Shown here: positions 46,970 through 58,311 of the stretch, piece by piece
Numbering within the stretch: the stretch's first letter is position 1
How the letters are laid out: each line of letters begins with the position of its first letter
DNA from: a virus
Virus record (IMG/VR): IMGVR_UViG_3300021962_000124
Coordinates: 1 to 58,311 of that record
Reading direction: 5' to 3' (one strand)
Length of the DNA: 58,311 nucleotides
Translations under genes and position numbers: made by a program
Notes under the pieces: generated by a model
What the model saw: only the letters and a program-made list of their open reading frames with translations
The model's database searches: none
What the model was told of the DNA's origin: nothing

Positions 46970-46999
46970 ACTATAAGGACACTTTCAAGGCCCCAAGTT
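46970..46999 (-). repeat. 30-bp intergenic element, copy 1
   Basis: A variant copy (core AACTTGGGGCCTTGAAA, end TATAGT). It lies nine bases after the stop of the 57-residue gene and about 50 bases before the next ATG. Confidence 0.85.
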
Positions 47000-47008
47000 A
47001 CTGTTACT

Positions 47009-47182
47009 CTACCAACGATCGGGTGTGCTTAAGTCCTCAACATACGCATCGCACTTCTCTGCAGGTTCCAACTTGAATAACTTCTCCCAGTCAATCTGAT
47101 GTGGGTCAAAGTCAGGAAACGCTTGAATGTCTAGAGTGATGCGATAACGAACCTTCTGTGCTTGACTGTATGCTACTGACAT
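47009..47182 (-). CDS. Hypothetical protein, 57 residues
   Basis: Reads MSVAYSQAQKVRYRITLDIQ, then PHQIDWEKLFKLEP. The ATG at 47182 is chosen because AGGAG lies eight bases before it and a consensus promoter ends about 27 bases upstream. A longer frame to 47356 would run through that promoter. It is the first gene of the transcript that continues to the 46-residue gene. Function unknown. Confidence 0.8.
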   Translation of the reverse strand: MSVAYSQAQKVRYRITLDIQAFPDFDPHQIDWEKLFKLEPAEKCDAYVEDLSTPDRW

Positions 47183-47209
47183 AAGTACGCTCCTTGTGTT
47201 ACTGTAAGT

Positions 47210-47238
47210 ATTGTAAGATGCTGAGACGTTTTTGTCAA
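47210..47238 (-). promoter_or_regulatory. Consensus sigma-70-type promoter (leftward)
   Basis: Minus-strand TTGACA (47238-47233), an exact 17-bp spacer, and TACAAT (47215-47210), followed by AGGAG and the 57-residue gene. It is one of the best promoter matches I found in the window and should be read early by host polymerase. Confidence 0.85.
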
Positions 47239-47310
47239 TGGACCTGGGGGTATTTATGGGCGGGTGGTGGATTTTTGTGCGGGATCTGTGAGGATTTTGT
47301 GACGGGGTGC

Positions 47311-47339
47311 TTGACAGATTTGCAAAGTGCTGATACAAT
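47311..47339 (+). promoter_or_regulatory. Consensus sigma-70-type promoter on the plus strand
   Basis: TTGACA (47311-47316), a 17-bp spacer, and TACAAT (47334-47339) on the plus strand, opposite to every gene in the window. No credible reading frame follows. It faces the leftward promoter about 70 bases away. Confidence 0.75.
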
Positions 47340-47415
47340 GCGGCCAAAGATAACAAGGTCTAGACACATTTAAAAGGCACAATAAGGTCTCTATTCTCAA
47401 CAATAAACCCTATTG

Positions 47416-47445
47416 ATTCTCAATAAACTAACACTTATTGAGAAT
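47416..47445. repeat. Perfect 11-bp inverted repeat, 8-base loop
   Basis: ATTCTCAATAA and its exact complement flank eight bases. A partial direct copy (ATTCTCAA) lies at about 47393. It could be an RNA hairpin in the plus-strand transcript or a protein-binding operator. Confidence 0.85.
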
Positions 47446-47528
47446 GATTTACAACGCTCATATACATTTAAAAACACATTTAATCAATAAAAAAACGTTT
47501 TTTAACGTTATTTTTACCATAAAGGCAT

Positions 47529-47554
47529 AAAAAAAGACCCCTTAAATGGGGTCT
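47529..47554 (-). terminator. Intrinsic terminator after the 41-residue gene
   Basis: A 7-bp stem (47535-47541 with 47548-47554, AGACCCC/GGGGTCT) and a 6-base loop, followed on the minus strand by seven T. It ends the unit that runs from 48380 to 47557. Confidence 0.92.
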
Positions 47555-47556
47555 CT

Positions 47557-47682
47557 TTATTGATTCTCAGTAGCAAACATTTCGATTCCGTTGATTGCTC
47601 GATTGCCTAAATTAGCAATCCCATTGAATCCAACTGTCGAAAGTATGATACCAATGACTACACCTATCAAGAACTTAGACAT
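47557..47682 (-). CDS. Small single-span membrane protein, 41 residues
   Basis: Reads MSKFLIGVVIGIILSTVGFN, a transmembrane or signal-anchor segment from residue 4 to about 18, then a short polar tail. It lies three bases after the 78-residue gene and directly before a terminator. Small membrane peptides of this kind are common in phage early regions. Role unknown. Confidence 0.7.
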   Translation of the reverse strand: MSKFLIGVVIGIILSTVGFNGIANLGNRAINGIEMFATENQ

Positions 47683-47684
47683 AC

Positions 47685-47921
47685 TCAATCCAATGCAAGT
47701 CTGTAACGAGCATAATCCTCTGCATCAGATCTTTTCTTGAAACGTGCTAACTCTCCTTCAAACTTGAGTGGAAGGTATCGGTATTTCTTTCCTTCCTTGG
47801 TGATAACAGTTCTGGAGAATAGATGAAGAGAGTAAATACCTTCCTGATGTAATTCATACTCTTGCTTTACAATGAAAGGGAGAACTTTGTTATCGTTGAA
47901 TGACTTGGTAGAGAGTAACAT
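47685..47921 (-). CDS. Hypothetical protein, 78 residues
   Basis: A basic, beta-rich protein (LPFIVKQEYELHQEGIYSLH; GKKYRYLPLKFEGELARFKK) ending in a helix (SDAEDYARYRLALD). It resembles small cyanophage proteins with a DNA- or RNA-binding look but has no clear motif. It is third of four genes in a terminated unit. Confidence 0.75.
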   Translation of the reverse strand: MLLSTKSFNDNKVLPFIVKQEYELHQEGIYSLHLFSRTVITKEGKKYRYLPLKFEGELARFKKRSDAEDYARYRLALD

Positions 47922-47928
47922 AATGGAA

Positions 47929-48063
47929 TTAGTTGTTGATCAGTTCAGCAGGACTTCCGCATGATTTGTAGAACTCAACCATACGTTTTGCTTCCTCTAA
48001 TGTAGAGAAACTTTGCTCTCTCCATTGTTGTTGATAAGGCGTAAAGTAACGGATTTTGAACAT
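47929..48063 (-). CDS. Small 44-residue protein
   Basis: Reads MFKIRYFTPYQQQWREQSFS then TLEEAKRMVEFYKS, a beta-then-helix pattern typical of small phage proteins. The ATG overlaps the previous stop as TGATG, a strong sign of coupling. Function unknown. Confidence 0.75.
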   Translation of the reverse strand: MFKIRYFTPYQQQWREQSFSTLEEAKRMVEFYKSCGSPAELINN

Positions 48064-48380
48064 CAGTTAAGTACCATACCTTCAGTGAAAGGAATTGTGT
48101 TACCATTATCAATCACAAACCATTCAAAGTCACGTTGAAAGATACGGGCATCATTTCCATGAACTTTCAGAATAGCATTGAGACGTGATTTGGTAGTGGG
48201 AGTTTTATACCCACAAGTGTAAAGTTCAAGGAAGGTATCACCAATCGTTGCAATATGATTGCCGTGAAGATACACATAATTGGCATCACGTTCGGGAGAA
48301 TAAGTTACTTCAGTGTTGTCATTCTTCCAGTCTTTGCAATCACAAATTGCTTTATTCATTTGGAGTTCGATCTTTCGCAT
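48063..48380 (-). CDS. Hypothetical protein, 105 residues
   Basis: Reads MRKIELQMNKAICDCKDWKN, then a beta-rich body (TYSPERDANYVYLHGNHIAT; LELYTCGYKTPTTKSRLNAI). CDCKDW near the start is a Cys pair without a partner. It is the first gene after a copy of the 30-bp element, with about 20 bases between. No known domain. Confidence 0.75.
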   Translation of the reverse strand: MRKIELQMNKAICDCKDWKNDNTEVTYSPERDANYVYLHGNHIATIGDTFLELYTCGYKTPTTKSRLNAILKVHGNDARIFQRDFEWFVIDNGNTIPFTEGMVLN

Positions 48381-48401
48381 GGTAGGAAGTTCAGTGGTTA
48401 T

Positions 48402-48431
48402 ACAATAGGGACACTTTCAAGGCCCCAGGTT
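48402..48431 (-). repeat. 30-bp intergenic element, copy 2
   Basis: Core AACCTGGGGCCTTGAAA, end TATTGT in place of TATAGT. It lies between the 91-residue gene and the 105-residue gene. Confidence 0.9.
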
Positions 48432-48439
48432 GTGATTAC

Positions 48440-48715
48440 TCAGAACTGAGTTGTTGTAACAATCTCCTCTGCAAGTTCATCACCTACAATACCAGCAATG
48501 AACTCTTGAGTTGAATCATCATCCTCACCTTCTGCAACCCAAATATCTTCAATTAGCATTGCAACATCAGTATCACCCTGACCAGGATTTTGGTCAAAAG
48601 ATGACATCATCATTTGCACAGCATAGGATACCAAATCATCCATGTCCATGTTATCAATTACCCGATTGCAATGTGCAACCAGAAGATCAGAAACTTGTTC
48701 GGAAGTAAGAGTCAT
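48440..48715 (-). CDS. Acidic protein, paralogue of the 76-residue gene at 49549
   Basis: A 91-residue acidic protein. MTLTSEQVSDLLVAHCNRVI then DNMDMDDLVSYAVQMMMS aligns with MELTQDQYDKLL and DGMDIDSLVQFASEM of the gene at 49549, so the two are paralogues. Both end in a helical, acidic C-terminus (LAEEIVTTTQF, AEELLETVTSTDLN). Its acidity recalls DNA-mimic or RNA-polymerase-binding phage proteins, but nothing specific is seen. Confidence 0.75.
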   Translation of the reverse strand: MTLTSEQVSDLLVAHCNRVIDNMDMDDLVSYAVQMMMSSFDQNPGQGDTDVAMLIEDIWVAEGEDDDSTQEFIAGIVGDELAEEIVTTTQF

Positions 48716-48752
48716 TTTGTTGGAAAAAGTTGAGTGGAAAAAAAGAGAGAAA

Positions 48753-48968
48753 TCAGGCAGCGATTGCAGACTCTAGACATACCTCACGAGTGTCCAGGAT
48801 AGCATAATCAAAACCCTCAACTTCTTCCAGGTGTTTTTGATAAGCAACAGCAGAGGAGAAGCAATCAAACAAGCGGAGAGATTTGAAGTCTTCACCTTCA
48901 TAATCAATTCCACCAATCACAGCATAGACAGACATTTTGGACATTTGGGAGGTTTGGAAGAGCATCAT
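48753..48968 (-). CDS. Hypothetical protein, up to 71 residues
   Basis: The frame begins with the ATG formed right at the end of a 30-bp element (copy 3). A later start (MSKMSVYAVIGGIDYEGEDF at 48944) is equally likely because the conserved-looking part begins there. The body reads LRLFDCFSSAVAYQKHLEEV. Small cyanophage proteins beginning VYAVIGGIDYEGE are familiar to me, without known role. Confidence 0.7.
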   Translation of the reverse strand: MMLFQTSQMSKMSVYAVIGGIDYEGEDFKSLRLFDCFSSAVAYQKHLEEVEGFDYAILDTREVCLESAIAA

Positions 48969-48998
48969 ACTATAGGGACACTTTCAAGGCCCCAGGTT
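48969..48998 (-). repeat. 30-bp intergenic element, copy 3
   Basis: Consensus copy (AACCTGGGGCCTTGAAA, then GTGTCCCTATAGT). It fills the whole gap: stop TGA directly before it, ATG directly after. Confidence 0.92.
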
Positions 48999-49139
48999 TC
49001 AATCACAAACAATCATCGGTCCTTCAATATCACAAAACTCTAAAAGAAAGTGATCAATGTTGATACCTAACTCATTTGCAAACTGTAGATTTTCTTGGTA
49101 TTGTTCCTGTGATAGAATATAGAAATCAGTCTCAATCAT
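48999..49139 (-). CDS. Small 46-residue protein
   Basis: Reads MIETDFYILSQEQYQENLQF then LGINIDHFLLEFC. The ATG at 49139 is inside the end of the 49-residue gene (8-base overlap); longer upstream extensions run antiparallel to no feature and are less likely. It is last in a three-gene cassette. Function unknown. Confidence 0.7.
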   Translation of the reverse strand: MIETDFYILSQEQYQENLQFANELGINIDHFLLEFCDIEGPMIVCD

Positions 49140-49281
49140 TGTCGATTTGTCCTCCTTGAATTTCAACATTTTCGAGTACAGTGACGATTTGATTGTTTGG
49201 AGTAAGGTATTCAATTTGCAGAACATTTGGTGCGATTTCAGTAGATCCAATGATCGCAGATGCAAGCAGAAGTTCAATCAT
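49132..49281 (-). CDS. Small protein with hydrophobic N-terminus
   Basis: A 49-residue protein, MIELLLASAIIGSTEIAPNV, then YLTPNNQIVTVLENVEIQGG. The first 12 residues are hydrophobic but short and lack the basic residue of a classical signal peptide. It overlaps the following gene. I recall similar peptides in cyanophages. Function unknown. Confidence 0.7.
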   Translation of the reverse strand: MIELLLASAIIGSTEIAPNVLQIEYLTPNNQIVTVLENVEIQGGQIDND

Positions 49282-49283
49282 AA

Positions 49284-49514
49284 TCAGTCGTAACGTGAGG
49301 AGAGATCAGGACCAGGATTTTCGAGATGTGCAACACTATCAGCAACACCTTCAGCAGTTAGTGCAAACTGAACTTTTTTGCCTTCGTGATAGATGTCAAA
49401 GACAGATTGCACATAAGGTGTCAGATTGCCTTGCGAATCCCAGGCATTTCGTGTATGTGAAGTCTCAACGATTTGATAGACTTTAGAGGTGAGAGGTGAA
49501 ACGTAAGTGCTCAT
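49284..49514 (-). CDS. Hypothetical protein, 76 residues
   Basis: Reads MSTYVSPLTSKVYQIVETSH, then VQSVFDIYHEGKKVQFALTA. There is no other Met in the protein, so the ATG made by the 30-bp element (copy 4) must be the start unless a non-ATG codon is used. This is important for reading the role of the element. Function unknown. Confidence 0.75.
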   Translation of the reverse strand: MSTYVSPLTSKVYQIVETSHTRNAWDSQGNLTPYVQSVFDIYHEGKKVQFALTAEGVADSVAHLENPGPDLSSRYD

Positions 49515-49544
49515 ACTATAGGGACAATTTGAAGGCCCCAGGTT
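49515..49544 (-). repeat. 30-bp intergenic element, copy 4
   Basis: Core AACCTGGGGCCTTCAAA, then TTGTCCCTATAGT. It fills the gap between the 76-residue paralogue and the next ATG. Confidence 0.92.
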
Positions 49545-49548
49545 TCAG

Positions 49549-49779
49549 TTAGTTAAGATCAGTTGATGTTACAGTTTCCAGCAATTCTTCTGCAAACTCA
49601 CGATCATAAACTGCTTGGATTTCATCTAGCAATTCTTCAGGAAGTGAGCAACTTTCACGCAACTTTTCTTCTAACATTTCACTTGCAAATTGTACTAAAC
49701 TGTCGATGTCCATTCCATCAACAACTTGCTCAATGTAGAGTGCAAGAAGTTTATCGTATTGGTCTTGAGTAAGTTCCAT
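49549..49779 (-). CDS. Acidic protein, paralogue of the gene at 48440
   Basis: A 76-residue acidic protein beginning MELTQDQYDKLLALYIEQVV. The start at 49779 is chosen because it aligns with the start of the 48440 paralogue; the frame is open ten codons further. Conserved parts are DGMDIDSLVQFASEM and the end FAEELLETVTSTDLN. Function unknown; duplicated early-region gene. Confidence 0.7.
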   Translation of the reverse strand: MELTQDQYDKLLALYIEQVVDGMDIDSLVQFASEMLEEKLRESCSLPEELLDEIQAVYDREFAEELLETVTSTDLN

Positions 49780-49805
49780 TTTGTTTGCAGGATTAGGAAG
49801 GGAAA

Positions 49806-50015
49806 TCATTTCAGAATGTGGCGATAATCAATGGATTTAATACACCAACCCGTTGTGCAGGTGATCTCTTCAACGAGATCTTCTTCATCATCTGCCTCCC
49901 AAATTGTACCGATAGTTTCCTCAGTTATTTCATTCTGATAGTCAGGATCTACATCGCCCCAAGTATCATCATCAGAGGAAAAATCAAACTCAATGTAAGT
50001 AACTTGGAATTGCAT
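49806..50015 (-). CDS. Acidic protein, 69 residues
   Basis: Reads MQFQVTYIEFDFSSDDDTWG, then WEADDEEDLVEEITCTTGWC, with a Cys pair near the end. The ATG overlaps the previous stop as TGATG. The many Asp and Glu give a strong negative charge, as in DNA-mimic proteins, but no specific relation is claimed. Confidence 0.75.
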   Translation of the reverse strand: MQFQVTYIEFDFSSDDDTWGDVDPDYQNEITEETIGTIWEADDEEDLVEEITCTTGWCIKSIDYRHILK

Positions 50016-50164
50016 CAGACTTCATCCCTCATTTCAGACAGTTTTTCATACAATGCAGACACATCTGCACCTACAATTTCACTCACTTCGTCCCAATCAT
50101 CATGAAACTCAATGAGAGCAAGAATTGCATCCAATTCTTCAAAAGTAAGAGTGGTTTGTGTCAT
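50015..50164 (-). CDS. Small helical protein, paralogue of the gene at 51224
   Basis: A 49-residue protein: MTQTTLTFEELDAILALIEF, ending ALYEKLSEMRDEV. The gene at 51224 has the same layout (TTTQIDALVALIEYHQDEGW, ending RELLKMREEV), so they are paralogues. The stop overlaps the next ATG as TGATG. Helical, acidic; role unknown. Confidence 0.75.
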   Translation of the reverse strand: MTQTTLTFEELDAILALIEFHDDWDEVSEIVGADVSALYEKLSEMRDEV

Positions 50165-50166
50165 AA

Positions 50167-50352
50167 TCAGGAAACGACAGAGTAACAAGCAACAGAAGAA
50201 GGAATACCTGAAAGTGCTAGCGAACCGTTGCGATCATCGCAATACTCTTGGGCATCATCTTCGCTGTAGAAAGGTCCAATATACTCAGGAGAATTGAGTG
50301 CGTTGGAATCGAAGCGAACTGTGAATGTTTCAGTCATTGTGGTTTGTCTCAT
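50167..50352 (-). CDS. Hypothetical protein, 61 residues
   Basis: Starts at the ATG formed by element copy 5 (MRQTTMTETFTVRFDSNALN) or at the second Met (MTETF). The body reads YIGPFYSEDDAQEYCDDRNG, which looks like a small beta-alpha domain. First gene of a four-gene cassette. Function unknown. Confidence 0.7.
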   Translation of the reverse strand: MRQTTMTETFTVRFDSNALNSPEYIGPFYSEDDAQEYCDDRNGSLALSGIPSSVACYSVVS

Positions 50353-50382
50353 ACTATAGGGACACTTTGAAGGCCCCAGGTT
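50353..50382 (-). repeat. 30-bp intergenic element, copy 5
   Basis: Core AACCTGGGGCCTTCAAA, then GTGTCCCTATAGT. The stop of the 57-residue gene is directly before it and an ATG directly after. Confidence 0.92.
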
Positions 50383-50556
50383 TCAGTAACCGTTCAGGAA
50401 ATCAGCAAGTGCTTCCCGATACTGTTCCTCGGTGTGATAGGTTCTAGCACCAATAGTCAGAGGAAAGGTATGCTTTGGAGCAGAAACTTTAGGCAGGTCA
50501 CGACCCTTATCGAGAACCTGTTGCTTATAAGGATTGGAGTTGTAGTTAGTGTTCAT
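50383..50556 (-). CDS. Hypothetical protein, 57 residues
   Basis: Reads MNTNYNSNPYKQQVLDKGRD, then FPLTIGARTYHTEEQYREAL. It starts at the ATG of element copy 6 and has no later Met. It is a single-gene cassette with an element on each side, with no spare bases at either end. Function unknown. Confidence 0.75.
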   Translation of the reverse strand: MNTNYNSNPYKQQVLDKGRDLPKVSAPKHTFPLTIGARTYHTEEQYREALADFLNGY

Positions 50557-50586
50557 ACTATAGGGACACTTTCAAGGCCCCAGGTT
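50557..50586 (-). repeat. 30-bp intergenic element, copy 6
   Basis: Consensus copy (AACCTGGGGCCTTGAAA, then GTGTCCCTATAGT), four bases after the stop of the 47-residue gene and abutting the next ATG. Confidence 0.92.
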
Positions 50587-50590
50587 ACTA

Positions 50591-50734
50591 TCATCGAAAA
50601 GTTGCATTGACACCTACAACTTTTGCAGTAGGATTTCGTGCTTGTGCAGTCTCGCGGGCATCTTTCGGGGAGTTAGCATACACTTCCTCCTTGAAGACTT
50701 TACCACCAACGTATAACTGAACTTCGTATTTCAT
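50591..50734 (-). CDS. Small 47-residue protein
   Basis: Reads MKYEVQLYVGGKVFKEEVYA, then NSPKDARETAQARNPTAKVV, a beta-beta-helix pattern common in short phage proteins. It follows the second copy of the structured 3' element after about 44 bases. Function unknown. Confidence 0.75.
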   Translation of the reverse strand: MKYEVQLYVGGKVFKEEVYANSPKDARETAQARNPTAKVVGVNATFR

Positions 50735-50777
50735 TGGATTGTTTGTACTTTGAGAAAAATCGTTAATTTGACTGCAG

Positions 50778-50871
50778 CGGATGACCTATGACACCCTCAC
50801 AGTAGAATTGCAGAAAAAACAGGTTTTTGGTCTAGTGCTGGACTGGGTTCTCAGCGAGACACAAGTGAGAA
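50778..50871 (-). ncRNA. Structured 3' element, copy B
   Basis: A stretch of about 93 bases directly after the stop at 50872 that resembles the element at 57379-57461. Shared blocks on the minus strand are CTGAGAACCCAG (CTGAGATCCCAG in the other), AAAACCTG, CAATTCT and AGGTCATCC. Possible RNA pairs are GUCU with AGAC and ACCUG with UAGGU. It lies at the end of a five-gene cassette. It may be a terminator-like or RNA-stability element; it is not a standard intrinsic terminator. Confidence 0.55.
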
Positions 50872-51063
50872 TTACAGCGTCTGCCAGTCTTGTGCCTCTT
50901 TCAAGTTAGAGTTAAAGAACTTTTGTAGAATGGAACTGATCACAGGTTGCCATTCTCTGTCTTTAATTAGGTCACGATTTTGTGCTTCAACAAGAAACTT
51001 AAGGATGCAAGTCTCTTCATTAGCAGTGAAATCAACGCGAGTGAAAGTGTATCCGTCAGTCAT
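50872..51063 (-). CDS. Hypothetical protein, 63 residues
   Basis: Reads MTDGYTFTRVDFTANEETCI, then FLVEAQNRDLIKDREWQPVI and a helical end. The ATG overlaps the previous stop as TGATG. Last gene of the five-gene cassette, directly followed by the structured 3' element. Function unknown. Confidence 0.75.
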   Translation of the reverse strand: MTDGYTFTRVDFTANEETCILKFLVEAQNRDLIKDREWQPVISSILQKFFNSNLKEAQDWQTL

Positions 51064-51221
51064 CAATCGTCTCCAAAGTTGTTAGCAAGAAAGTCCTCAA
51101 GTTCAGCGAGTTTGGTAGGAGTTAATGCCCAAACATATTCACTGATAATTGTAGCGAGAAGGTCAGGATCTTCACGACATTTCTCATTCAAAAAGAACTC
51201 AAGTTCAGTGAGTTTGTTCAT
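51063..51221 (-). CDS. Small 52-residue protein
   Basis: Reads MNKLTELEFFLNEKCREDPD, then VWALTPTKLAELEDFLANNF. The segment LTELEFFLNE is partly repeated as LAELEDFLAN at the end, suggesting two similar helices. Short spacing on both sides supports coupled translation. Function unknown. Confidence 0.72.
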   Translation of the reverse strand: MNKLTELEFFLNEKCREDPDLLATIISEYVWALTPTKLAELEDFLANNFGDD

Positions 51222-51223
51222 AA

Positions 51224-51379
51224 TCAAACCTCTTCACGCATTTTGAGAAGTTCTCTACGAAGTTCGCCACCTTCATAGGCAAGAAGACCCGTAGTTTCAA
51301 TCATGTTATACCATCCTTCATCTTGGTGATACTCAATCAGGGCAACTAGAGCATCAATTTGTGTGGTTGTTAAAGTCAT
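51224..51379 (-). CDS. Small helical protein, paralogue of the gene at 50015
   Basis: A 51-residue protein beginning MTLTTTQIDALVALIEYHQD and ending LRRELLKMREEV. The layout matches the gene at 50015. The middle (GWYNMIETTGLLAYEGG) differs. Two bases separate it from each neighbour's coding end and start. Function unknown. Confidence 0.74.
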   Translation of the reverse strand: MTLTTTQIDALVALIEYHQDEGWYNMIETTGLLAYEGGELRRELLKMREEV

Positions 51380-51381
51380 AA

Positions 51382-51549
51382 TCAAACAGGGGTAACTTCA
51401 ACGGAACGGATAAGATTTGTGCGATCTTGCGCTAGATAATCGTCTGCAATCTTGCCACAAGATGAACGCGATTGAATGATCTTTTCTTCGTATAGGTTCT
51501 CATCTTCATCAGGAACCCAATACTCAATCAGAAGGCGATAGTTCTTCAT
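51382..51549 (-). CDS. Small 55-residue protein
   Basis: Reads MKNYRLLIEYWVPDEDENLY, then EEKIIQSRSSCGKIADDYLA. The start at 51549 is two bases after the previous stop; a longer frame would overlap the neighbour. Beta-then-helix layout. Function unknown. Confidence 0.74.
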   Translation of the reverse strand: MKNYRLLIEYWVPDEDENLYEEKIIQSRSSCGKIADDYLAQDRTNLIRSVEVTPV

Positions 51550-51551
51550 AA

Positions 51552-51794
51552 TCAGTACAGAGGGCAGAATGAACCACAGAAGCGACGAACCCACTGCAAA
51601 GTGTCATAATGACTGCGGGGTTTCGACATCACCATGCTTTTATTTGTTTCAGGGTTGAGAGCAATAGCAACGTATTTGTGGTCACATTCCTGATACTCAG
51701 GAGTGATTTGTTGAATAAACATTTGACGTACAGTACCTTCTTTCCAGTTGGTAGTGTAGTGAAAGACTTGATCCATTTCAGTGGTTGTGCTCAT
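51552..51794 (-). CDS. Hypothetical protein, 80 residues
   Basis: Starts at the ATG of element copy 7: MSTTTEMDQVFHYTTNWKEG. A second Met at position 7 is an alternative. Body: VRQMFIQQITPEYQECDHKY, with Cys residues at the C-terminus (FCGSFCPLY). The leader MSTTT is shared with the 143-residue gene after copy 9, as though the element extends into the coding start. Confidence 0.72.
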   Translation of the reverse strand: MSTTTEMDQVFHYTTNWKEGTVRQMFIQQITPEYQECDHKYVAIALNPETNKSMVMSKPRSHYDTLQWVRRFCGSFCPLY

Positions 51795-51824
51795 ACTATA
51801 GGGACACTTTGAAGGCCCCAGGTT
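51795..51824 (-). repeat. 30-bp intergenic element, copy 7
   Basis: Core AACCTGGGGCCTTCAAA, then GTGTCCCTATAGT, abutting the next ATG. Directly upstream CAGGTT, five bases away from its AACCTG, forms an extra 6-bp inverted repeat. Confidence 0.92.
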
Positions 51825-51857
51825 TCAATCAACCTGAGGTAAATCAGGTTTATTTTA

Positions 51858-52163
51858 CTACCTTAAAGAATAGACTTCATCACCAACATCACTCAGAAGA
51901 TTTTGTTGAACGTAATCTCGAACATCATTTGAGTAATCAACAATTTTACCTCCCAAAATTACAAGTTCAGTTCTCAACCTTTCAGAAAGTAGATCTTTTG
52001 AAAAGTAAGTTATTGAGGGATCATTGTCGGGAATGGTTGGATCGTAAATGTTTCCTTTAGCAGATTTTTTAACACACCAATCGTAAGATACGATAGATTT
52101 AATTTTATCTTCTTCTGGAAGAAGTTCTACCCTACGACCAGACTTTTCGTGATAGATTTTCAT
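51858..52163 (-). CDS. Hypothetical protein, 101 residues
   Basis: Reads MKIYHEKSGRRVELLPEEDK, then IVSYDWCVKKSAKGNIYDPT, LLSERLRTELVILGGKIVDY. It starts 23 bases after element copy 8, so here the element does not supply the start codon. A single-gene cassette. Function unknown. Confidence 0.75.
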   Translation of the reverse strand: MKIYHEKSGRRVELLPEEDKIKSIVSYDWCVKKSAKGNIYDPTIPDNDPSITYFSKDLLSERLRTELVILGGKIVDYSNDVRDYVQQNLLSDVGDEVYSLR

Positions 52164-52186
52164 TTGAGTTTGAGAGGTGTGCTTAC

Positions 52187-52216
52187 ACTATGGGGACACT
52201 TTGAAGGACCCAGGTT
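52187..52216 (-). repeat. 30-bp intergenic element, copy 8
   Basis: A variant copy: core AACCTGGGTCCTTCAAA, end CATAGT. It lies eight bases after the stop of the 86-residue gene. Confidence 0.85.
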
Positions 52217-52224
52217 ACTGATAC

Positions 52225-52485
52225 TTACCAAGTTCCACGTTGGATGTGGATCTTGCGGATCTCTTGATAAAGAAACTGACGAAGTTTAGGTTCGGAAGTG
52301 TTATCAAAAGCATAATAAAGACGATTCAAGTATTCATCCTGTGTGGCACCTATGTTACCATCACCACCGATCTCATTGAGTGCAGAACCTGCAACAACTT
52401 TGCTCTTGCCGAAGTTGCCAGACACACGCCCAGATGTCCTCAGTTTGGGTTTGATCTTTGAGAGGTTAGAGTAAGTCATTGACAT
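52225..52485 (-). CDS. Hypothetical protein, 86 residues
   Basis: A basic protein: MSMTYSNLSKIKPKLRTSGR, then NFGKSKVVAGSALNEIGGDG and YLNRLYYAFDNTSEPKLRQF. The ATG at 52485 overlaps the previous stop as TGATG; a second ATG follows two codons later. Basic Gly/Ser/Lys-rich N-terminus and helical C-terminus. Function unknown. Confidence 0.74.
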   Translation of the reverse strand: MSMTYSNLSKIKPKLRTSGRVSGNFGKSKVVAGSALNEIGGDGNIGATQDEYLNRLYYAFDNTSEPKLRQFLYQEIRKIHIQRGTW

Positions 52486-52916
52486 CACTTCGCGTACAGA
52501 TAACCACCAGACCAGTCTGCATTTTCCAGCAGATACTCACGATCTTTGATCAATCGCAGGTCATAACGAACACCTTTGGCAGGAGATTTCCAGGTGGCAG
52601 ACTTATACACTTCGCCAGTGTTCTTATCAATGAAGCAATGAACACTACGCGATCCGCCACCACTCACAAAGATGACTTTGTGATACTTTTTACCAGTCTC
52701 AACAGTATAATCAATGTCACACTTGCCAGACTTGAGTTCATCAATCTTGCGCTGATGATACTCTTGAGTGTCAGCATCATTCACGAACTTTTGATGACCG
52801 CGAATAGAATACTGACGATAATTGTCTTTCAATGCTTCAATCAGCAGCAGAGTGTTCTTATACACATTGTCTGCAATGGTTTGTTGTGCTTGTGCTTGCA
52901 TTGTAGTTGTGCTCAT
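52485..52916 (-). CDS. Hypothetical protein, 143 residues
   Basis: Starts at the ATG of element copy 9: MSTTTMQAQAQQTIADNVYK; a second Met lies at position 6. The first half is helical (LLLIEALKDNYRQYSIRGHQ). The second half is beta-rich: KYHKVIFVSGGGSRSVHCFI, GEVYKSATWKSPAKGVRYDL. I recall this C-terminal pattern in cyanophage proteins of unknown role. A longer frame to 52997 would cross the element and is not preferred. Confidence 0.78.
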   Translation of the reverse strand: MSTTTMQAQAQQTIADNVYKNTLLLIEALKDNYRQYSIRGHQKFVNDADTQEYHQRKIDELKSGKCDIDYTVETGKKYHKVIFVSGGGSRSVHCFIDKNTGEVYKSATWKSPAKGVRYDLRLIKDREYLLENADWSGGYLYAK

Positions 52917-52946
52917 ACTATAAGGACAATTTGAAGGCCCCAGGTT
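52917..52946 (-). repeat. 30-bp intergenic element, copy 9
   Basis: Core AACCTGGGGCCTTCAAA, then TTGTCCTTATAGT, between the ligase-like gene and the 143-residue gene and abutting its ATG. Confidence 0.92.
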
Positions 52947-52950
52947 ACAT

Positions 52951-53859
52951 TCACCAATTCTTTTGAAGTGTAAAGTTTTGACGACTGAACTCTTCACGAT
53001 TTACGATCTTGTACGATCCAAACTTGTTGGTCATAACATAACCTTCGTGATCGCTCAGTTGTCCATCAATCTCACACGAAATGTCGGTGTCAGATTCAAT
53101 GAAGCAGAACAAATCCATCTTGATAGATTCAACCAACTTCCACAAACGCAGAACATTCACATCAACATCATAATTTTCTGCAATTTCATGCTCATCGACC
53201 TCCTTACCCTCACGGATGTAGGAATTGATGACTTTTTTGAGTTCTGTTGCTTGTTTGTTGCTTACAAAGGTGCAAAGAGTGCTCATTTGTTTAGCAAACT
53301 TGCAGAAGTCTTCGATGTCATCACGATGAGGACAGATAGATGCTTCAGGTTGCACCCATTTCACATCCAGAGTATCAACAAACTGTTTGCTGATAGGATG
53401 TGCAACAGCATTGCGAAGATCACTCTCACAATCATACTCAGTGTGAGGAGCAATGATTACACTTTGCTCGATCACCTCATCGAACTTGTAAGTGATCGTA
53501 TTGGGGCGATAAGTATCATCACCGCCAAAACCAATAAAATCACCTTGATAGATGTGATTTGTGCGAGGAAGACTATCAAAGCAAGCATGAAGAATAGTCG
53601 CAACTTTACCCTCATGGTTCGCATCAATTTCTTCATGTGAATGATTGATCTTGATCTTTACTTTGTTGAACACAGATTTGGTGCCAACGAAGAACTTACC
53701 ATTGGCAGGATTGCGACCCCACACAATAGCAGGAGCACCATCAATCTTGACACTGATAGTAGAATCAGCAGAGAACCAATCAAGAACCGAAAGATCACCC
53801 GTAAGGATCATATCTTCAGGATGTTCGAGATGTTTGTTTTGCATTGGTTGCTTGCTCAT
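52951..53859 (-). CDS. Polynucleotide-ligase-like nucleotidyltransferase (DUF6267-like)
   Basis: A 302-residue protein with motifs in the order of covalent nucleotidyltransferases. Motif I is VKIDGAPAIVWG (candidate AMP-accepting Lys38), then YQGDFIGFG (about 104-112), motif IV EGYV (about 272-275) and motif V SYKIVN (Lys284). I recall this family in cyanophages as DUF6267, related to RNA/DNA ligases. It could seal or repair RNA or DNA ends in host defence conflicts; substrate unknown. It starts at the ATG of element copy 10. Confidence 0.8.
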   Translation of the reverse strand: MSKQPMQNKHLEHPEDMILTGDLSVLDWFSADSTISVKIDGAPAIVWGRNPANGKFFVGTKSVFNKVKIKINHSHEEIDANHEGKVATILHACFDSLPRTNHIYQGDFIGFGGDDTYRPNTITYKFDEVIEQSVIIAPHTEYDCESDLRNAVAHPISKQFVDTLDVKWVQPEASICPHRDDIEDFCKFAKQMSTLCTFVSNKQATELKKVINSYIREGKEVDEHEIAENYDVDVNVLRLWKLVESIKMDLFCFIESDTDISCEIDGQLSDHEGYVMTNKFGSYKIVNREEFSRQNFTLQKNW

Positions 53860-53889
53860 ACTACTACGACAGTTTCAAGGCCCCAGGTT
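53860..53889 (-). repeat. 30-bp intergenic element, copy 10
   Basis: Core AACCTGGGGCCTTGAAA, then CTGTCGTAGTAGT, a changed end while the core is intact. It abuts the ligase-like ATG. Confidence 0.88.
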
Positions 53890-53892
53890 ATA

Positions 53893-54096
53893 TTAAACTT
53901 GCACCAATTTGGCAAGACGATTGCGAATATCAAAGATCTCCATTTCATCCATATCTACGGCATCCAAATCTACAGGAGCAAACTCCTCAAGATTTACATT
54001 TCCGTCAGCATAGATGGGTGCATAATACAACTCATCACCATCTTCTTGCGAGAGAGTATAAACGCAACCGTGACCAGGAACAGTGAGAAAAATCAT
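53893..54096 (-). CDS. Conserved-type cyanophage protein, 67 residues
   Basis: Reads MIFLTVPGHGCVYTLSQEDG, then APVDLDAVDMDEMEIFDIRN. I recall a nearly identical small acidic protein (MIFLTVPGHG) in many cyanophages. The start at 54096 is chosen from this similarity. A terminator-like hairpin lies 28 bases upstream. Confidence 0.82.
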   Translation of the reverse strand: MIFLTVPGHGCVYTLSQEDGDELYYAPIYADGNVNLEEFAPVDLDAVDMDEMEIFDIRNRLAKLVQV

Positions 54097-54117
54097 TGGA
54101 GTTTCACGAACAAAGGT

Positions 54118-54154
54118 ACAATAAAGGAGCACAAGCATAAAAGCAAGTGCTCCT
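54118..54154 (-). terminator. Terminator-like hairpin
   Basis: On the minus strand AGGAGCAC (54154-54147) pairs with GTGCTCCT (54132-54125) around a loop with extra GC pairs, followed by TTTATTG. The T run is short, so termination may be partial. It separates the 85-residue membrane protein from the 67-residue gene. Confidence 0.65.
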
Positions 54155-54165
54155 GTGACAGTTTA

Positions 54166-54423
54166 TCAAGCGGAACGACGCTTGCGGGTTTTAGTAACAG
54201 TAGCAGGTTGCTCCACTACTTCAGCAGGAGAAAGTTGTGCTTTACCAAACTCAATCAGTGTATCAACAAACTTCAGAAACTGAAGAGTTGCAACACGAAC
54301 TTTCTCACTTCCATTGTTCTCATTGAAGGAACGAATGAGGAATTGAACTACACCAACAACGACGGCACTGATAGTAGCGACGTTCTTGACGAGAGTATCA
54401 ACAAATGTCCAGTAAAAGGTCAT
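54166..54423 (-). CDS. Single-span membrane protein, 85 residues
   Basis: Reads MTFYWTFVDTLVKNVATISA, with a transmembrane helix at about 13-32 (ATISAVVVGVVQFLI), then a helical part (LQFLKFVDTLIEFGKAQLSP) and a basic tail (KTRKRRSA). Similar proteins are frequent in cyanophages. It is followed by a terminator-like hairpin and begins about 38 bases after element copy 11. Function unknown. Confidence 0.78.
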   Translation of the reverse strand: MTFYWTFVDTLVKNVATISAVVVGVVQFLIRSFNENNGSEKVRVATLQFLKFVDTLIEFGKAQLSPAEVVEQPATVTKTRKRRSA

Positions 54424-54461
54424 AGTTTGTATTAGAAACTGCGGTGGGGACACGTCCTCAC

Positions 54462-54491
54462 ATCATAGGGACACTTTCAAGGCCCCAGGTT
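54462..54491 (-). repeat. 30-bp intergenic element, copy 11
   Basis: Core AACCTGGGGCCTTGAAA, then GTGTCCCTATGAT. It lies four bases after the methyltransferase stop. Confidence 0.9.
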
Positions 54492-54495
54492 TAAC

Positions 54496-55269
54496 TCAAC
54501 CAAATTGCGTCAGATCAACTGGAATGTTTCCAATTCGATCCTCTGCGATCTTAAAGTATTCGGAATCACTTTCCATACCAATGAACTTACGTCCTAGTTT
54601 TACAGCAGCAACACCTGTAGATCCAGATCCCATACAATTATCCAACACAACTTCACCCTCGTTAGAGTAAGTTTTTACCAACCATTCCATTAGTGGAACT
54701 GGTTTTTGTGTAGGATGAACTTGTTGCTGAGCACTGAAATCTCTTGAAATGTTGAGAACTGACTTCGGATACCTTGTACCATCATTAGAGAATGATTTGC
54801 GTGGTTTCATACCATAACCATGATCATTCTTTCGACCAACGTAACCCTCTGGGTTCTTACTTGTTCTTGAGTATGGTTCTCCTTTTTCCATCTGTGGGTT
54901 GTATGTACCACCTGCGTTCTTGTAGAAGATCAGAATGTTCTCGTGAGTCTTCATTGGTCTGTATTTGGCAAGTCCAGGCGACCCACATTTGTTCTTGTTC
55001 CACACTAACTCGTACCTGAACCATTCTAACTTTGAGCAAATAAGTTGTGCGGAAAAAGGCTGAGAACCAAACAGGCAAATCACACCCTTAGGTTTAATGA
55101 TTCTGCCATACTGTTCCCACATAAGGTTAAAATCTAAAACCTCATCCCATTTGATCGAAGTAGTACCAAAAGGTGGATCACAGCAAATAAAATCAATAGA
55201 AGAATCGGGGATGTCTTTCATCAACTGAAGGCAATCCCCGAATTGTAGATCAAAGTTGCTCAAAACCAT
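54496..55269 (-). CDS. DNA methyltransferase, beta class (N6-adenine or N4-cytosine)
   Basis: A 257-residue enzyme. The catalytic motif IV is ICCDPPFGTT (DPPF at 31-34) and the SAM-binding motif I comes after it, LDNCMGSGSTGVAA (about 209-222). This IV-before-I order defines the beta class, as in DpnM-unrelated enzymes such as YhdJ/MboII type. HPTQKPVPLMEWL before motif I is also typical. The product would methylate DNA, protecting it from restriction. Its start lies 20 bases inside the 201-residue gene, so the two are co-translated and may be a functional pair. Confidence 0.93.
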   Translation of the reverse strand: MVLSNFDLQFGDCLQLMKDIPDSSIDFICCDPPFGTTSIKWDEVLDFNLMWEQYGRIIKPKGVICLFGSQPFSAQLICSKLEWFRYELVWNKNKCGSPGLAKYRPMKTHENILIFYKNAGGTYNPQMEKGEPYSRTSKNPEGYVGRKNDHGYGMKPRKSFSNDGTRYPKSVLNISRDFSAQQQVHPTQKPVPLMEWLVKTYSNEGEVVLDNCMGSGSTGVAAVKLGRKFIGMESDSEYFKIAEDRIGNIPVDLTQFG

Positions 55270-55855
55270 TGTGTGCGTTAATTTTGCGGCGTACAGATTC
55301 CTTGTAACATTCTACCAGAAACTTGTATGCTTGTCCATAGTCACGCTCAACGGGTTGAGTGTTATCCTTCCACTTAATTTGGAAGGGAAGATTATTACCA
55401 TTTGGAGTAATCTTCTGAAGAGACTTGAGACTTTGCAGATAAACTTTCTGAGTTCCCTTATCTACAACAATGATATAATAATCACGGTTGTTCTCTGCTC
55501 CACTGTGATTCTTCAGTGCATCCTGGAACTTTGCCCAGGAACTTGCATTAACTTGATCTTCAGGAAGATCAGTCAGAGCATACAAAATTGCTGCTTTTGA
55601 CGAAAAGTTATCTGCTGCACCTTTGTTGAAATCAGATGACTTAATGTTGAGATAATACCCAAACAATTTGACATCCCACCAGCAACGTGCTGGTGGTTTC
55701 TCTACATTTTCAGGACCATACTTCTCAACAAGAAGATCAATTACAGTGTCTTCATCTGCAATACTATTCACTCGCCCATCTTCATGACTCTCACTAATTG
55801 TAACAATGCCAGAGAGATAACTCACTACATCGGTAAGTTGTTGCGGAAAGTTCAT
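55250..55855 (-). CDS. Possible type II restriction-endonuclease-like protein
   Basis: A 201-residue protein overlapping the methyltransferase by 20 bases. It has ESHEDGRVNSIADED (about 22-36), then CWWDVKLFGYYLNIKSSDF. Asp61 with Asn70-Ile-Lys72 resembles a PD-(D/E)xK core in which the second acid is replaced; Glu25 or Glu35 could complete it. ADNFSSKAAILYALT follows. The layout and the partner suggest a restriction-type nuclease or an inactive relative. I know no named family with certainty. Alternatives are a methyltransferase accessory or a DNA-binding protein. Confidence 0.55.
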   Translation of the reverse strand: MNFPQQLTDVVSYLSGIVTISESHEDGRVNSIADEDTVIDLLVEKYGPENVEKPPARCWWDVKLFGYYLNIKSSDFNKGAADNFSSKAAILYALTDLPEDQVNASSWAKFQDALKNHSGAENNRDYYIIVVDKGTQKVYLQSLKSLQKITPNGNNLPFQIKWKDNTQPVERDYGQAYKFLVECYKESVRRKINAHNGFEQL

Positions 55856-55870
55856 GTGGTTAGTGGTTAC

Positions 55871-55900
55871 AATGAAGAGACAGTTTCAAGGCCCCAGGTT
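55871..55900 (-). repeat. 30-bp intergenic element, copy 12
   Basis: Core AACCTGGGGCCTTGAAA kept, end CTGTCTCTTCATT changed. It lies four bases after the stop of the 59-residue gene and about 15 bases before the restriction-like ATG. Confidence 0.88.
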
Positions 55901-57303: not shown

Positions 57304-57378
57304 TTTAGTTTAACAACTTTGGGTAGGGATGTCAAGCCCTGGATCACACTTTTGAAAAAATCAGTGATTTCCTTGTGG

Positions 57379-57461
57379 TGGATGACCTGTAGGGTCTGTG
57401 ACGCAGAATTGAAGAAAAATCAGGTTTTGACCCCAGTCCACCACTGGGATCTCAGTGGGTC
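57379..57461 (-). ncRNA. Structured 3' element, copy A
   Basis: Directly follows the helicase stop. On the minus strand ACTG/CAGT forms a hairpin, enclosed by GACCC with GGGTC, and ACCTG pairs with CAGGT across about 35 bases. Copy B (50778-50871) has different bases in the outer helix (GTCT with AGAC) but keeps pairing, and the lengths between shared blocks are equal. It has a short T run (ATTTTTC) but not a typical terminator layout. Function unknown. Confidence 0.55.
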
Positions 57462-58311
57462 TCACCTGCGAACCACCGACACAGCAGGTTCGCCCTTCTC
57501 AAAGATCGTATCAACCACTGCCTGCACACTGCGGGCGGTGCTGATACCAACCTTAGAATACACAGGGATACACACAAGACCAAACGATTTGGTATATTGA
57601 CCCAGGTTGCCAGGTTGGATGCTACCATCGCGCAAACCTTTGGCATCATCGTGATGCAGACGGATGCAACGTCCGATAGTCTGACTGATACCAATGAAGT
57701 CCATATTACGCAGGAACAGCACTGCTTCCAGACCGCTCACATTGATACCCTCAGCGAGGATACTGTGGTGAAGAACAACGAACTTCTTATCGTTATCCTT
57801 ACCCCAGGCAGATAGCGTGTCGAAGAACACCTCACGATTGACCTTCTGACCATCAATAACTGCACCTGTCTTAGCAGTAATATACATCCAAGAGAAACCA
57901 CGTTGCTCTAGTTCAAAGCAGAAGTCAGTTTCAGACACCAGCGAAACGATTTGCTTGGTTGCTTTAGCACAAATCAGAATCTTACCGACCTTGTTCTCAT
58001 CAATAGTTTCCAGCAGGTTAGCAGCATCGCGGTCGAAGTTGGTCTGCTTACCCTTCACCATCTCCAGTTGCTTGACGATCACTTTAGGGGGTACAATGTA
58101 ACCACCTTCGACAAGTTCAGGAGCAGGAACTTTGCAGATGACCTGACCATAAACTGCAGCATCATTCATTCCAGGTTTGCCAACGGCAAGGGAATGTTTG
58201 GGAGTTGCAGTGAAGAAGTAGCAGCGACGTGCATTAGCAGCAAAGTGCTCAGTTGCAGGGAAAAAGTGACGCTGAACGCTGTTATGTGCCTCATCAAAGT
58301 AGATCGTATCC
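57462..58311 (-). CDS. SF2 DEAH-type helicase (5' part outside window)
   Basis: The frame is open to the window edge. It contains the Walker B box FDEAH at its first visible residues, motif III FTATP, a RecA-like second domain with HHSILAEGINVSG, and motif VI QTIGRCIRL (QxxGRxxR). These are the signature motifs of superfamily 2 helicases of the UvsW/restriction-helicase type. Walker A must lie upstream of the window. T4 UvsW acts in recombination and replication-fork rescue; whether this is that enzyme or a cyanophage-specific relative cannot be settled from the part seen. Ends at the structured 3' element. Confidence 0.9.
   Translation of the reverse strand, partial: DTIYFDEAHNSVQRHFFPATEHFAANARRCYFFTATPKHSLAVGKPGMNDAAVYGQVICKVPAPELVEGGYIVPPKVIVKQLEMVKGKQTNFDRDAANLLETIDENKVGKILICAKATKQIVSLVSETDFCFELEQRGFSWMYITAKTGAVIDGQKVNREVFFDTLSAWGKDNDKKFVVLHHSILAEGINVSGLEAVLFLRNMDFIGISQTIGRCIRLHHDDAKGLRDGSIQPGNLGQYTKSFGLVCIPVYSKVGISTARSVQAVVDTIFEKGEPAVSVVRR

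Follow-up and report, generated by a model that had tools for sequence, protein, structure and literature searches.

A 30-bp intergenic element that occurs twelve times in the small-gene region of a 58,311-base record from a marine cyanobacterial virus (IMG/VR record IMGVR_UViG_3300021962_000124; "the window" below is this whole stretch) appears to be a promoter whose upstream part is specific to the genome that carries it and co-varies with one phage-encoded protein. We give odds of about two in three (0.68) to the following explanation as a whole: the copies are host-polymerase promoters in which the −35 element is replaced by the site of a lineage-specific activator, and this activator is probably packaged and injected. 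Under this model, each copy would be read by the host RNA polymerase through a −10 region (TATAGT or TAGTRT) and a spacer that are common to many cyanophages, and the place of the −35 element would be taken by a lineage-specific site of 9 to 10 bp, CCTGGGGCC in the window phage. That site would be recognized by a basic protein of ~200 amino acids (aa), here called the factor, by way of one face of an alpha-helix near its C terminus. The factor would probably be made late and packaged in the head through a T4-type capsid-targeting sequence (CTS); once injected with the DNA, it would switch on small takeover genes at once, and the element promoters would thus probably be early.

The initial annotation of the window had described twelve copies of constant length, all between genes and all on one strand, and pattern scans together with the open reading frame (ORF) list bore this out: every copy is a 30-mer on the minus (coding) strand, with no length variation. 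When up to two mismatches were allowed, the minus strand had 12 matches and the plus strand 1, and the reversed pattern gave none; with up to three, there were 19 matches versus 6.75 expected, a count that 0 of 100 shuffles equaled. In the coding orientation, and with bases numbered from A1, the first base of AACC, the unit reads AACCTGGGGCCTT[G/C]AAAGTGTCCCTATAGT and then RTRAGCAC; the latter, behind TATAGT, is also conserved, so that the conserved stretch is longer than first described. The core AACCTGGGGCCTT is exact in ten of the twelve copies, and the two that had been reported to deviate do so by one base each (46987-46999 and 52204-52216).

Related phages carry the element as well, with the core replaced by lineage-specific sequence. 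A Blast search of 50,697 phage records with one copy retrieved only S-SM2, SynMITS9220M01, and the single-cell virus AG-345-O18; a composed query added S-B05, S-B43, RB11-B, and RN05-S, and pattern scans of IMG/VR contigs yielded 10, 29, and at least 120 stretches with the element. We harvested 617 elements in which the constant half was within three mismatches, and more diverged variants (S-B05, P-TIM68) were missed by this harvest. The relatives keep the 3′ half, AAA-GTGTCCC-TATAGT-RTRAGCAC, and differ in the 5′ half, which is TACTCACC in SynMITS9220M01, GGGGGTCG in S-SM2, and CTGGGCCC, TAGTAACC, CTGAAGCC, TTGGATCC, and others elsewhere. The initial annotation had argued, from a core more conserved than TATAGT, that the element is no plain −10 promoter; this was half right, since between phages the core varies, whereas the −10 region is maintained. 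Copies within one contig nearly always agree (17 loci inspected; one, L068, was mixed), and they lie on a single strand in all 123 loci with at least two copies. In the complete genomes of S-SM2 and SynMITS9220M01, the copies are confined to the small-gene region near uvsW, on the plus strand. The array of S-B43 (L232, 7900-11500) is broken by tail fiber genes on the opposite strand, and the public assembly may be rearranged.

The variable part of the element, referred to here as the box (positions ~2 to 11), is uniform inside a genome and different between genomes. We split the entropy of 482 copies, from 74 contigs with at least four copies each, into parts within and between genomes, merging the loci of one contig and leaving out L001, L002, and L008, which are near the window genome. 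At positions 5 to 9, genome identity explained 0.87, 0.93, 0.97, 0.96, and 0.89 of the entropy; the values were 0.68 to 0.81 at positions 2 to 4 and 11 and at most 0.24 from position 27 on. Position 10 was C in 481 of the 482 copies, and T27 (475), A28 (470), T30 (478), and T32 (472) were nearly fixed, the constant half having been partly required by the harvest. These 74 contigs have 28 consensus boxes. Within genomes, entropy was 0.29 to 0.63 bits at positions 12 to 14 versus 0.03 to 0.17 at positions 5 to 9, and this greater variation right beside the box argues against homogenization by gene conversion.

The box also stays behind when genes move. We compared first genes that are at least 80% identical but follow boxes of different types (127 gene pairs, leave-one-out): in 251 of 254 cases the box matched the resident genome, in 2 it matched the partner, and 1 was a tie; the same test performed without leaving one out gave 377 resident, 0 partner, and 1 tie of 378. 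The box therefore belongs to the genome and not to the gene, as selection by a diffusible factor would bring about, unlike a cassette border. The mosaic contig G005 (L203, 9283 and 11006) has two TTACTCACC boxes in its 14 elements, the others being TCTGGGGCC-like; these two are possibly recent imports before conversion. Among the loci, the gene behind one of them has one weak relative and the gene behind the other has none.

The diffusible partner was sought among the ORFs of every contig for which a box was known (the consensus of a contig's own copies, sometimes a single copy). These ORFs were clustered, and 176 clusters were scored for how well they tracked box type. The factor cluster was conspicuous for its combination of size and score: its members, of ~200 aa, came from 66 contigs and 19 box types, and it reached an area under the curve (AUC) of 0.89, the median of the 176 clusters being 0.66. 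Its members start with MKTFxEFxxEA and have a conserved basic middle (YKPRKDIG), followed by a C-terminal region that varies with box type. Mantel and nearest-neighbor tests were run on 54 of the 66 factors after near-identical or short ones had been removed. The whole protein gave a Mantel rho of 0.37; the last 70 residues taken alone gave 0.484 and the remainder 0.253, compared with a median of 0.12 for other clusters. With neighbors of less than 35% divergence excluded, the nearest C terminus gave the box with 1.5 mismatches in 9 positions (two or fewer in 45 of 54), versus 2.98 for the N-terminal part and 4.6 for all pairs. Taken with the predictions and the helix pattern described below, this makes it very probable that the factor recognizes the box, presumably by binding the DNA directly.

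The factor family gave no significant Pfam match (scattered single-member hits at E values of 0.014 to 0.07) and no match to PDB up to an E value of 1, and the single member scanned against PHROG had none. The factor was found in 10 of the 50,697 phage records, in which a gene of the small-gene region was present in 467; most cyanophage records are without the factor. Named members are SSM2_065 (S-SM2), AIR93418.1 (P-TIM68), and SynMITS9220M01_053. A factor alignment scan showed the family to be common, with a relative encoded in 517 viral-contig stretches; 80 of the 517 were kept for the prediction work. The factor gene of the window phage itself is expected ~0.9 to 1.6 kb beyond position 58311, to judge from the closest relative overlapping the window end, locus L001, the first 539 bases of which are 90% identical to window positions 57773-58311; L001 extends beyond the window end, and its factor gene (1459-2115) lies on the same strand, next to AACCTGGGGCC boxes. 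Other candidates were set aside. One 75-aa cluster (n = 27) had a nearest-neighbor ratio of 0.38, close to the 0.31 of the factor (median of 61 clusters, 0.85), but its ORFs lie on the strand opposite the elements and it covers less box diversity. Three candidates from a three-genome comparison, namely, a 67-aa protein with a weak helix-turn-helix hit, an epimerase, and an outer-membrane-like protein, were dropped after a domain search, and for the 67-aa protein the distribution also spoke for dropping it.

Boxes could be predicted from the protein sequence alone, cultured phages included. P-TIM68 and AG-345-E15 carry the factor and had been missed by the element searches, and they served as out-of-sample cases. 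For P-TIM68, the nearest C termini predicted TTAGTAACC, with TTACTCACC and TTAGTTACC close behind; the genome contains 12 copies of TTAGTWACC (10 TTAGTTACC and 2 TTAGTAACC), all on the coding strand, versus 0.88 expected. For AG-345-E15, the prediction was ACTGAAGCC, and one ACTGAAGCG was found directly behind the factor gene. Among new loci, we used 49 of 73, the other 24 sharing DNA with training loci, and near-duplicates remain among the 49. The predicted box (no more than one mismatch, followed by NNNAAA) was present in 40 of the 49, versus 3.4% of 970 pairings of a locus with an unrelated box. All nine misses had 70.3% identity or less to the nearest trained C terminus. Eight of them carry another repeated box, mostly close to the prediction (TTAGTATCG, GGGGGCACG, ATGGGGGCC in four loci, and ACTGAAGCC; TCTGAGGCC was less near), and in the ninth case the contig ends within the factor.

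The association between protein and box could be narrowed to single residues. Within the motif TRxE[RK]-123456, represented by 48 distinct helix/box pairs, residue 1 was associated with element positions 7 and 8 (z scores of 13.7 and 12.6), residue 4 with positions 7 and 9 (8.0 and 8.1), and residue 5 with position 6 (12.7). Residue 3 was intermediate (up to 8.7), and residues 2 and 6 did not exceed 4.2. The helix KALYKK pairs with GGGGGGACG and KALTKK with GGGGGGTCG; D goes with TACTCACC and AGCTCACC and once also with GGGGGCACG, M goes with T7, and Q goes with A7. In an AlphaFold2 model, the motif lies inside a confident helix (residues 161 to 187; block means of 87 to 89 in the predicted local distance difference test [pLDDT]), while most of the remainder is uncertain (overall mean pLDDT of 67.5 and predicted template modeling score of 0.29). 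The clustering of the associated residues on one helix face would be typical of a protein that reads the major groove.

It is highly likely that the element is a promoter; among the roles that the initial annotation had offered, a promoter with a nonstandard upstream part is the best supported, and that part can now be described as a genome-specific site co-varying with one phage protein. The −10 hexamer resembles TATAAT and can be read as TATAGT (positions 25 to 30) or TAGTRT (27 to 32). In the second register, T27, A28, and T32 are each present in ~98% of copies, and the variable hexamer at positions 4 to 9 would then lie exactly 17 bp upstream, at the usual place of a −35 element; the box center, at position 7, falls at −30 or −32, depending on the start position assumed. 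The element has no −35 sequence. A TTGACA-like hexamer (at least four of six matches, spacing of 16 to 18) was found in 1 of 482 copies versus 60 of 482 with shuffled spacers when the −10 region was placed at 25 to 30 and in 0 versus 69 when it was placed at 27 to 32. In S-B05 (box TTACTCACC; spacer often TGTCCAC) and P-TIM68 (box TTAGTWACC; spacer TTGAxxx), the spacer has changed and the distance from box to −10 is kept, by eye. The leader seldom contains a Shine-Dalgarno-like string (15 of 521), and an Rfam search of the window gave 0 matches at the gathering score. Behind TATAGT, at positions 31 to 33, the triplet was ATG in 245, GTA in 169, ATA in 77, and GTG in 15 of 522 distinct elements; GTG was rarer there than expected for columns that vary independently, as though potential start codons had been either avoided or put to use deliberately. 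Of the 245 ATG triplets at that place, 228 begin an ORF that is 35 codons or longer.

The sequences around and within the factor gene suggest when the protein is made and how it travels. TAAATA occurs 15 to 48 nucleotides (nt) upstream of 62 of 64 factor genes (2 of the 66, with less than 45 nt of upstream sequence, were dropped), versus 24 of 1,357 other conserved ORFs on the same strand of the same loci. In S-SM2 and SynMITS9220M01, it is likewise found upstream of 7 of the 15 structural or neighboring genes examined and of 0 of 35 genes of the small-gene region. An excerpt of PMC3037559 gives TATAAAT as the T4 late promoter. The layout of the factor is that of a protein with an N-terminal CTS of ~10 residues: a MKTFxxF-like N terminus is present in 62 of 64 factors, with F4 and F7 nearly invariant, Glu-Ala or Glu-Val falls within residues 10 to 13 in many, though not all, members, and the protein is very basic. 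According to the excerpted part of PMC9026906, residues 4 and 7 of the T4 CTS are responsible for targeting, processing takes place near residue 10, and Glu-Ala is cut by gp21; T4 internal proteins are described there as basic and many as ejected into the host, where Alt then modifies the host polymerase. By analogy, the factor is probably borne by the virion.

T4 middle promoters lack a −35 element and have a box near −30, and in coliphage N4 a virion RNA polymerase, for which the promoter contains a hairpin, is the transcription machinery that the virion brings for early promoters. As proposed for the element, T4 middle promoters use host polymerase together with a phage activator (MotA, with AsiA) that recognizes a box upstream (PMC5780444, as excerpted). 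Here, however, the box differs by lineage, the factor has no significant Pfam match, and the factor gene is late-type by its promoter sequence and encodes a CTS-like N terminus. Although it may work in a similar way, we do not class the element as a T4 middle promoter because the MotA consensus is not found in it (at least seven of nine matches in 10 of 482 copies versus 57 of 482 shuffled). In the excerpts available of PMC2984593 and PMC5780444, marine T4-like cyanophages are reported to be without motA and asiA and without T4-like middle promoters, and for Syn9 and one other cyanophage the PMC2984593 excerpt mentions a putative middle promoter. The resemblance to the T4 internal head proteins IPI to IPIII and to Alt lies in the CTS layout of the N terminus and in the basic character of the protein (PMC9026906, in part). 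Alt itself is injected and modifies the host polymerase in favor of phage promoters (excerpts of PMC9026906 and PMC5780444), but it is an ADP-ribosyltransferase, while the C terminus of the factor seems to recognize one particular DNA site with which it co-evolves. The N4 system is alike in that transcription machinery would be delivered by the virion for early promoters; unlike N4, no conserved promoter hairpin of that type was found here, and no single-subunit RNA polymerase was found in 11 records, where a control search was also without hits. This search, for PF00940, is weak evidence against a T7/SP6-like single-subunit polymerase promoter, which we had considered for the string TATAG. 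Halovirus HF2 is comparable in that short repeats between viral genes were conjectured to be promoters and were tested (PMC8707807, in part); those motifs belong to a halovirus and are AT rich, and the available part of that source mentions no genome-specific box or co-evolving protein.

Whether the factor activates or represses, and whether it acts on DNA at all, can be weighed from the same evidence. That it activates is, in our judgment, likely. A repressor made late, which would bind the −35 region and shut off the small-gene promoters late in infection, would also suit the late-promoter-like sequence upstream of the factor gene and the position of the box where RNA polymerase binds, and co-variation is blind to the difference between activator and repressor. 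Such promoters would be expected to have a usable −35 element of their own, yet TTGACA-like sequences are depleted (1 versus 60 and 0 versus 69), and a late repressor would gain little from a capsid-targeting N terminus, as that sequence is described in the excerpt of PMC9026906; we therefore regard repression as unlikely. An activator that is made late and not packaged, turning on a further class of genes within the same infection, would also account for the late-promoter-like sequence. It is made improbable, to a similar degree, by the CTS-like N terminus of 62 of 64 factors and by the controlled genes, which would usually be of early type. Less probable still is a factor that binds the message leader and controls translation of the next small genes. 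For such a role one could cite the in-frame ATG at positions 31 to 33, the very basic protein, and the placement of an intergenic site just ahead of start codons, but the distance from box to −10 is fixed despite changes of spacer while the distance from box to start codon varies widely, there is no conserved fold, and the helix-face pattern is of the kind expected for major-groove reading.

Two further roles proposed in the initial annotation fared worse. A hairpin for RNA processing or stability was plausible at the outset from GGGG/CCC in the window, and S-SM2 has CGC/GCG; two window copies with the exact core pair GGGGC with GUCCC at −8 kcal/mol (z score of −1.1; 34 of 200 shuffles folded as well), and a third, deviating copy folds more weakly. 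Over the 40 commonest box variants, however, there was no compensatory change, pairing was 74.0% versus 74.1% in shuffles, and pair 8-22 was broken in 20 of the 40, while lineages with TACTCACC and TAGTAACC are, by inspection, unable to form the stem; the hairpin can be considered very improbable. The same applies to cassette exchange as the main function of the site. Genes do move between phages, as the 127 pairs with at least 80% identity across box types demonstrate, and contig G005 has its 2 foreign boxes in 14, but a site of exchange would be expected to move or recombine together with its gene, whereas 251 of 254 boxes remained of the resident type, and the reading of the copies as cassette borders is not upheld.

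Several observations weigh against the model of an activated, genome-specific promoter or blur it. The border of the box is not absolute: the genome explains 0.52 to 0.62 of the entropy at positions 12 to 14 and 0.2 to 0.46 at several of positions 18 to 26, and up to 0.45 upstream of position 2. In the cluster comparison, 13 small clusters (n of 8 to 11) had an AUC above that of the factor, its full-length rho of 0.37 was exceeded by 5 of 85 other clusters (n of 13 to 20), and its C-terminal rho of 0.484 was exceeded by one of the 85 and equaled by one. The z scores of the helix associations are inflated by shared ancestry, although ancestry alone would also raise residues 2 and 6, which share the same ancestry. 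S-B43 has an element array and no factor in its record, which looks rearranged. TAAATA is not in the tested stretch of S-B05 and L063 (the ORF of the latter is cut at its start), and the E10-A11 cleavage position is out of register in some members of the family. Finally, ATG at positions 31 to 33 shares its frame with the next usable ATG in 171 of 203 elements, and in 42 of 245 such elements no other usable ATG follows within 120 nt; this is hard to reconcile with transcription from positions 37 to 39, which would produce messages lacking that ATG. Possible explanations are messages that read through from promoters farther upstream or a transcription start at positions 29 to 31.

The twelve copies, all on the minus strand, divide a region that has a helicase gene at its right end and the baseplate end to its left; the annotations of S-SM2 and SynMITS9220M01 show the same arrangement, and the helicase end of the window has a megablast match to SynMITS9220M01. 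The genes behind the elements encode a methyltransferase, an endonuclease, and many tiny products of unknown function. The copy at 46970..46999 has the deviating core AACTTGGGGCCTT, and the one at 52187..52216 has the core AACCTGGGTCCTT together with CATAGT. The other ten have the exact core, among them those at 48402..48431 and 51795..51824. At 48969..48998, TATAGT is immediately followed by ATG, and at 49515..49544 and 50557..50586 the ATG right behind TATAGT is the sole obvious start of the next gene. The copy at 50353..50382 adjoins the stop codon of the upstream gene. All copies are intergenic by the ORF list and the sequence; that at 52917..52946 falls inside a mechanically called ORF (52485-52997), ahead of the part that matches a family (PHROG match from residue 29). 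The remaining three vary in the −10 region, with AGTAGT at 53860..53889, TATGAT at 54462..54491, and the most diverged −10 region of the twelve at 55871..55900.

Other repeats were noticed along the way. The window contains a second noncoding repeat pair (50747-50787 and 57348-57388), which folded as RNA no better than shuffles and to which a string in ACG-2014f (GTCTAGTG..ACTGG..TCTCAG) is related. An inverted repeat at 47530-47562 (AAAAAAGACCCC..GGGGTCTCTTT), in a noncoding AT-rich stretch, resembles an intrinsic terminator. ACG-2014f (L158, 25000-74000) has a different repeated intergenic unit that is promoter-like (e.g., 7710-7800 and 21234-21331), with a dyad, TGTGACAG..GTGGCACA, a TTGGCA-like −35, and a TATACT −10; its largest family has 13 copies, and related TGTGCCA..TGGCACA dyads are present in P-SSM2 (L157). 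A factor profile search of ACG-2014f gave no match.

A literature search found no description of the element or the factor, although most subscription papers and the Syn9 transcriptome paper were outside its coverage. The early and middle transcription of marine T4-like cyanophages, which have no MotA/AsiA, Alt, or Mod, was described as unclear as of 2010 (PMC2984593, in part). We lean, by a small measure, toward a broader interpretation in which the factors form a virion-delivered family with a fast-diversifying DNA code, such that each cyanophage lineage has a private −35 password. If this is true, co-infecting relatives could not use each other's early program, and imported genes would be useful only once their promoter box had been converted to the resident password, which would explain how local control of gene islands is maintained despite gene exchange. 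The factors would then be a new family of phage promoter-specificity factors. With individual helix residues matched to individual bases, they would also offer a useful, naturally occurring set of protein-DNA specificities for the study of how regulators alter their specificity.

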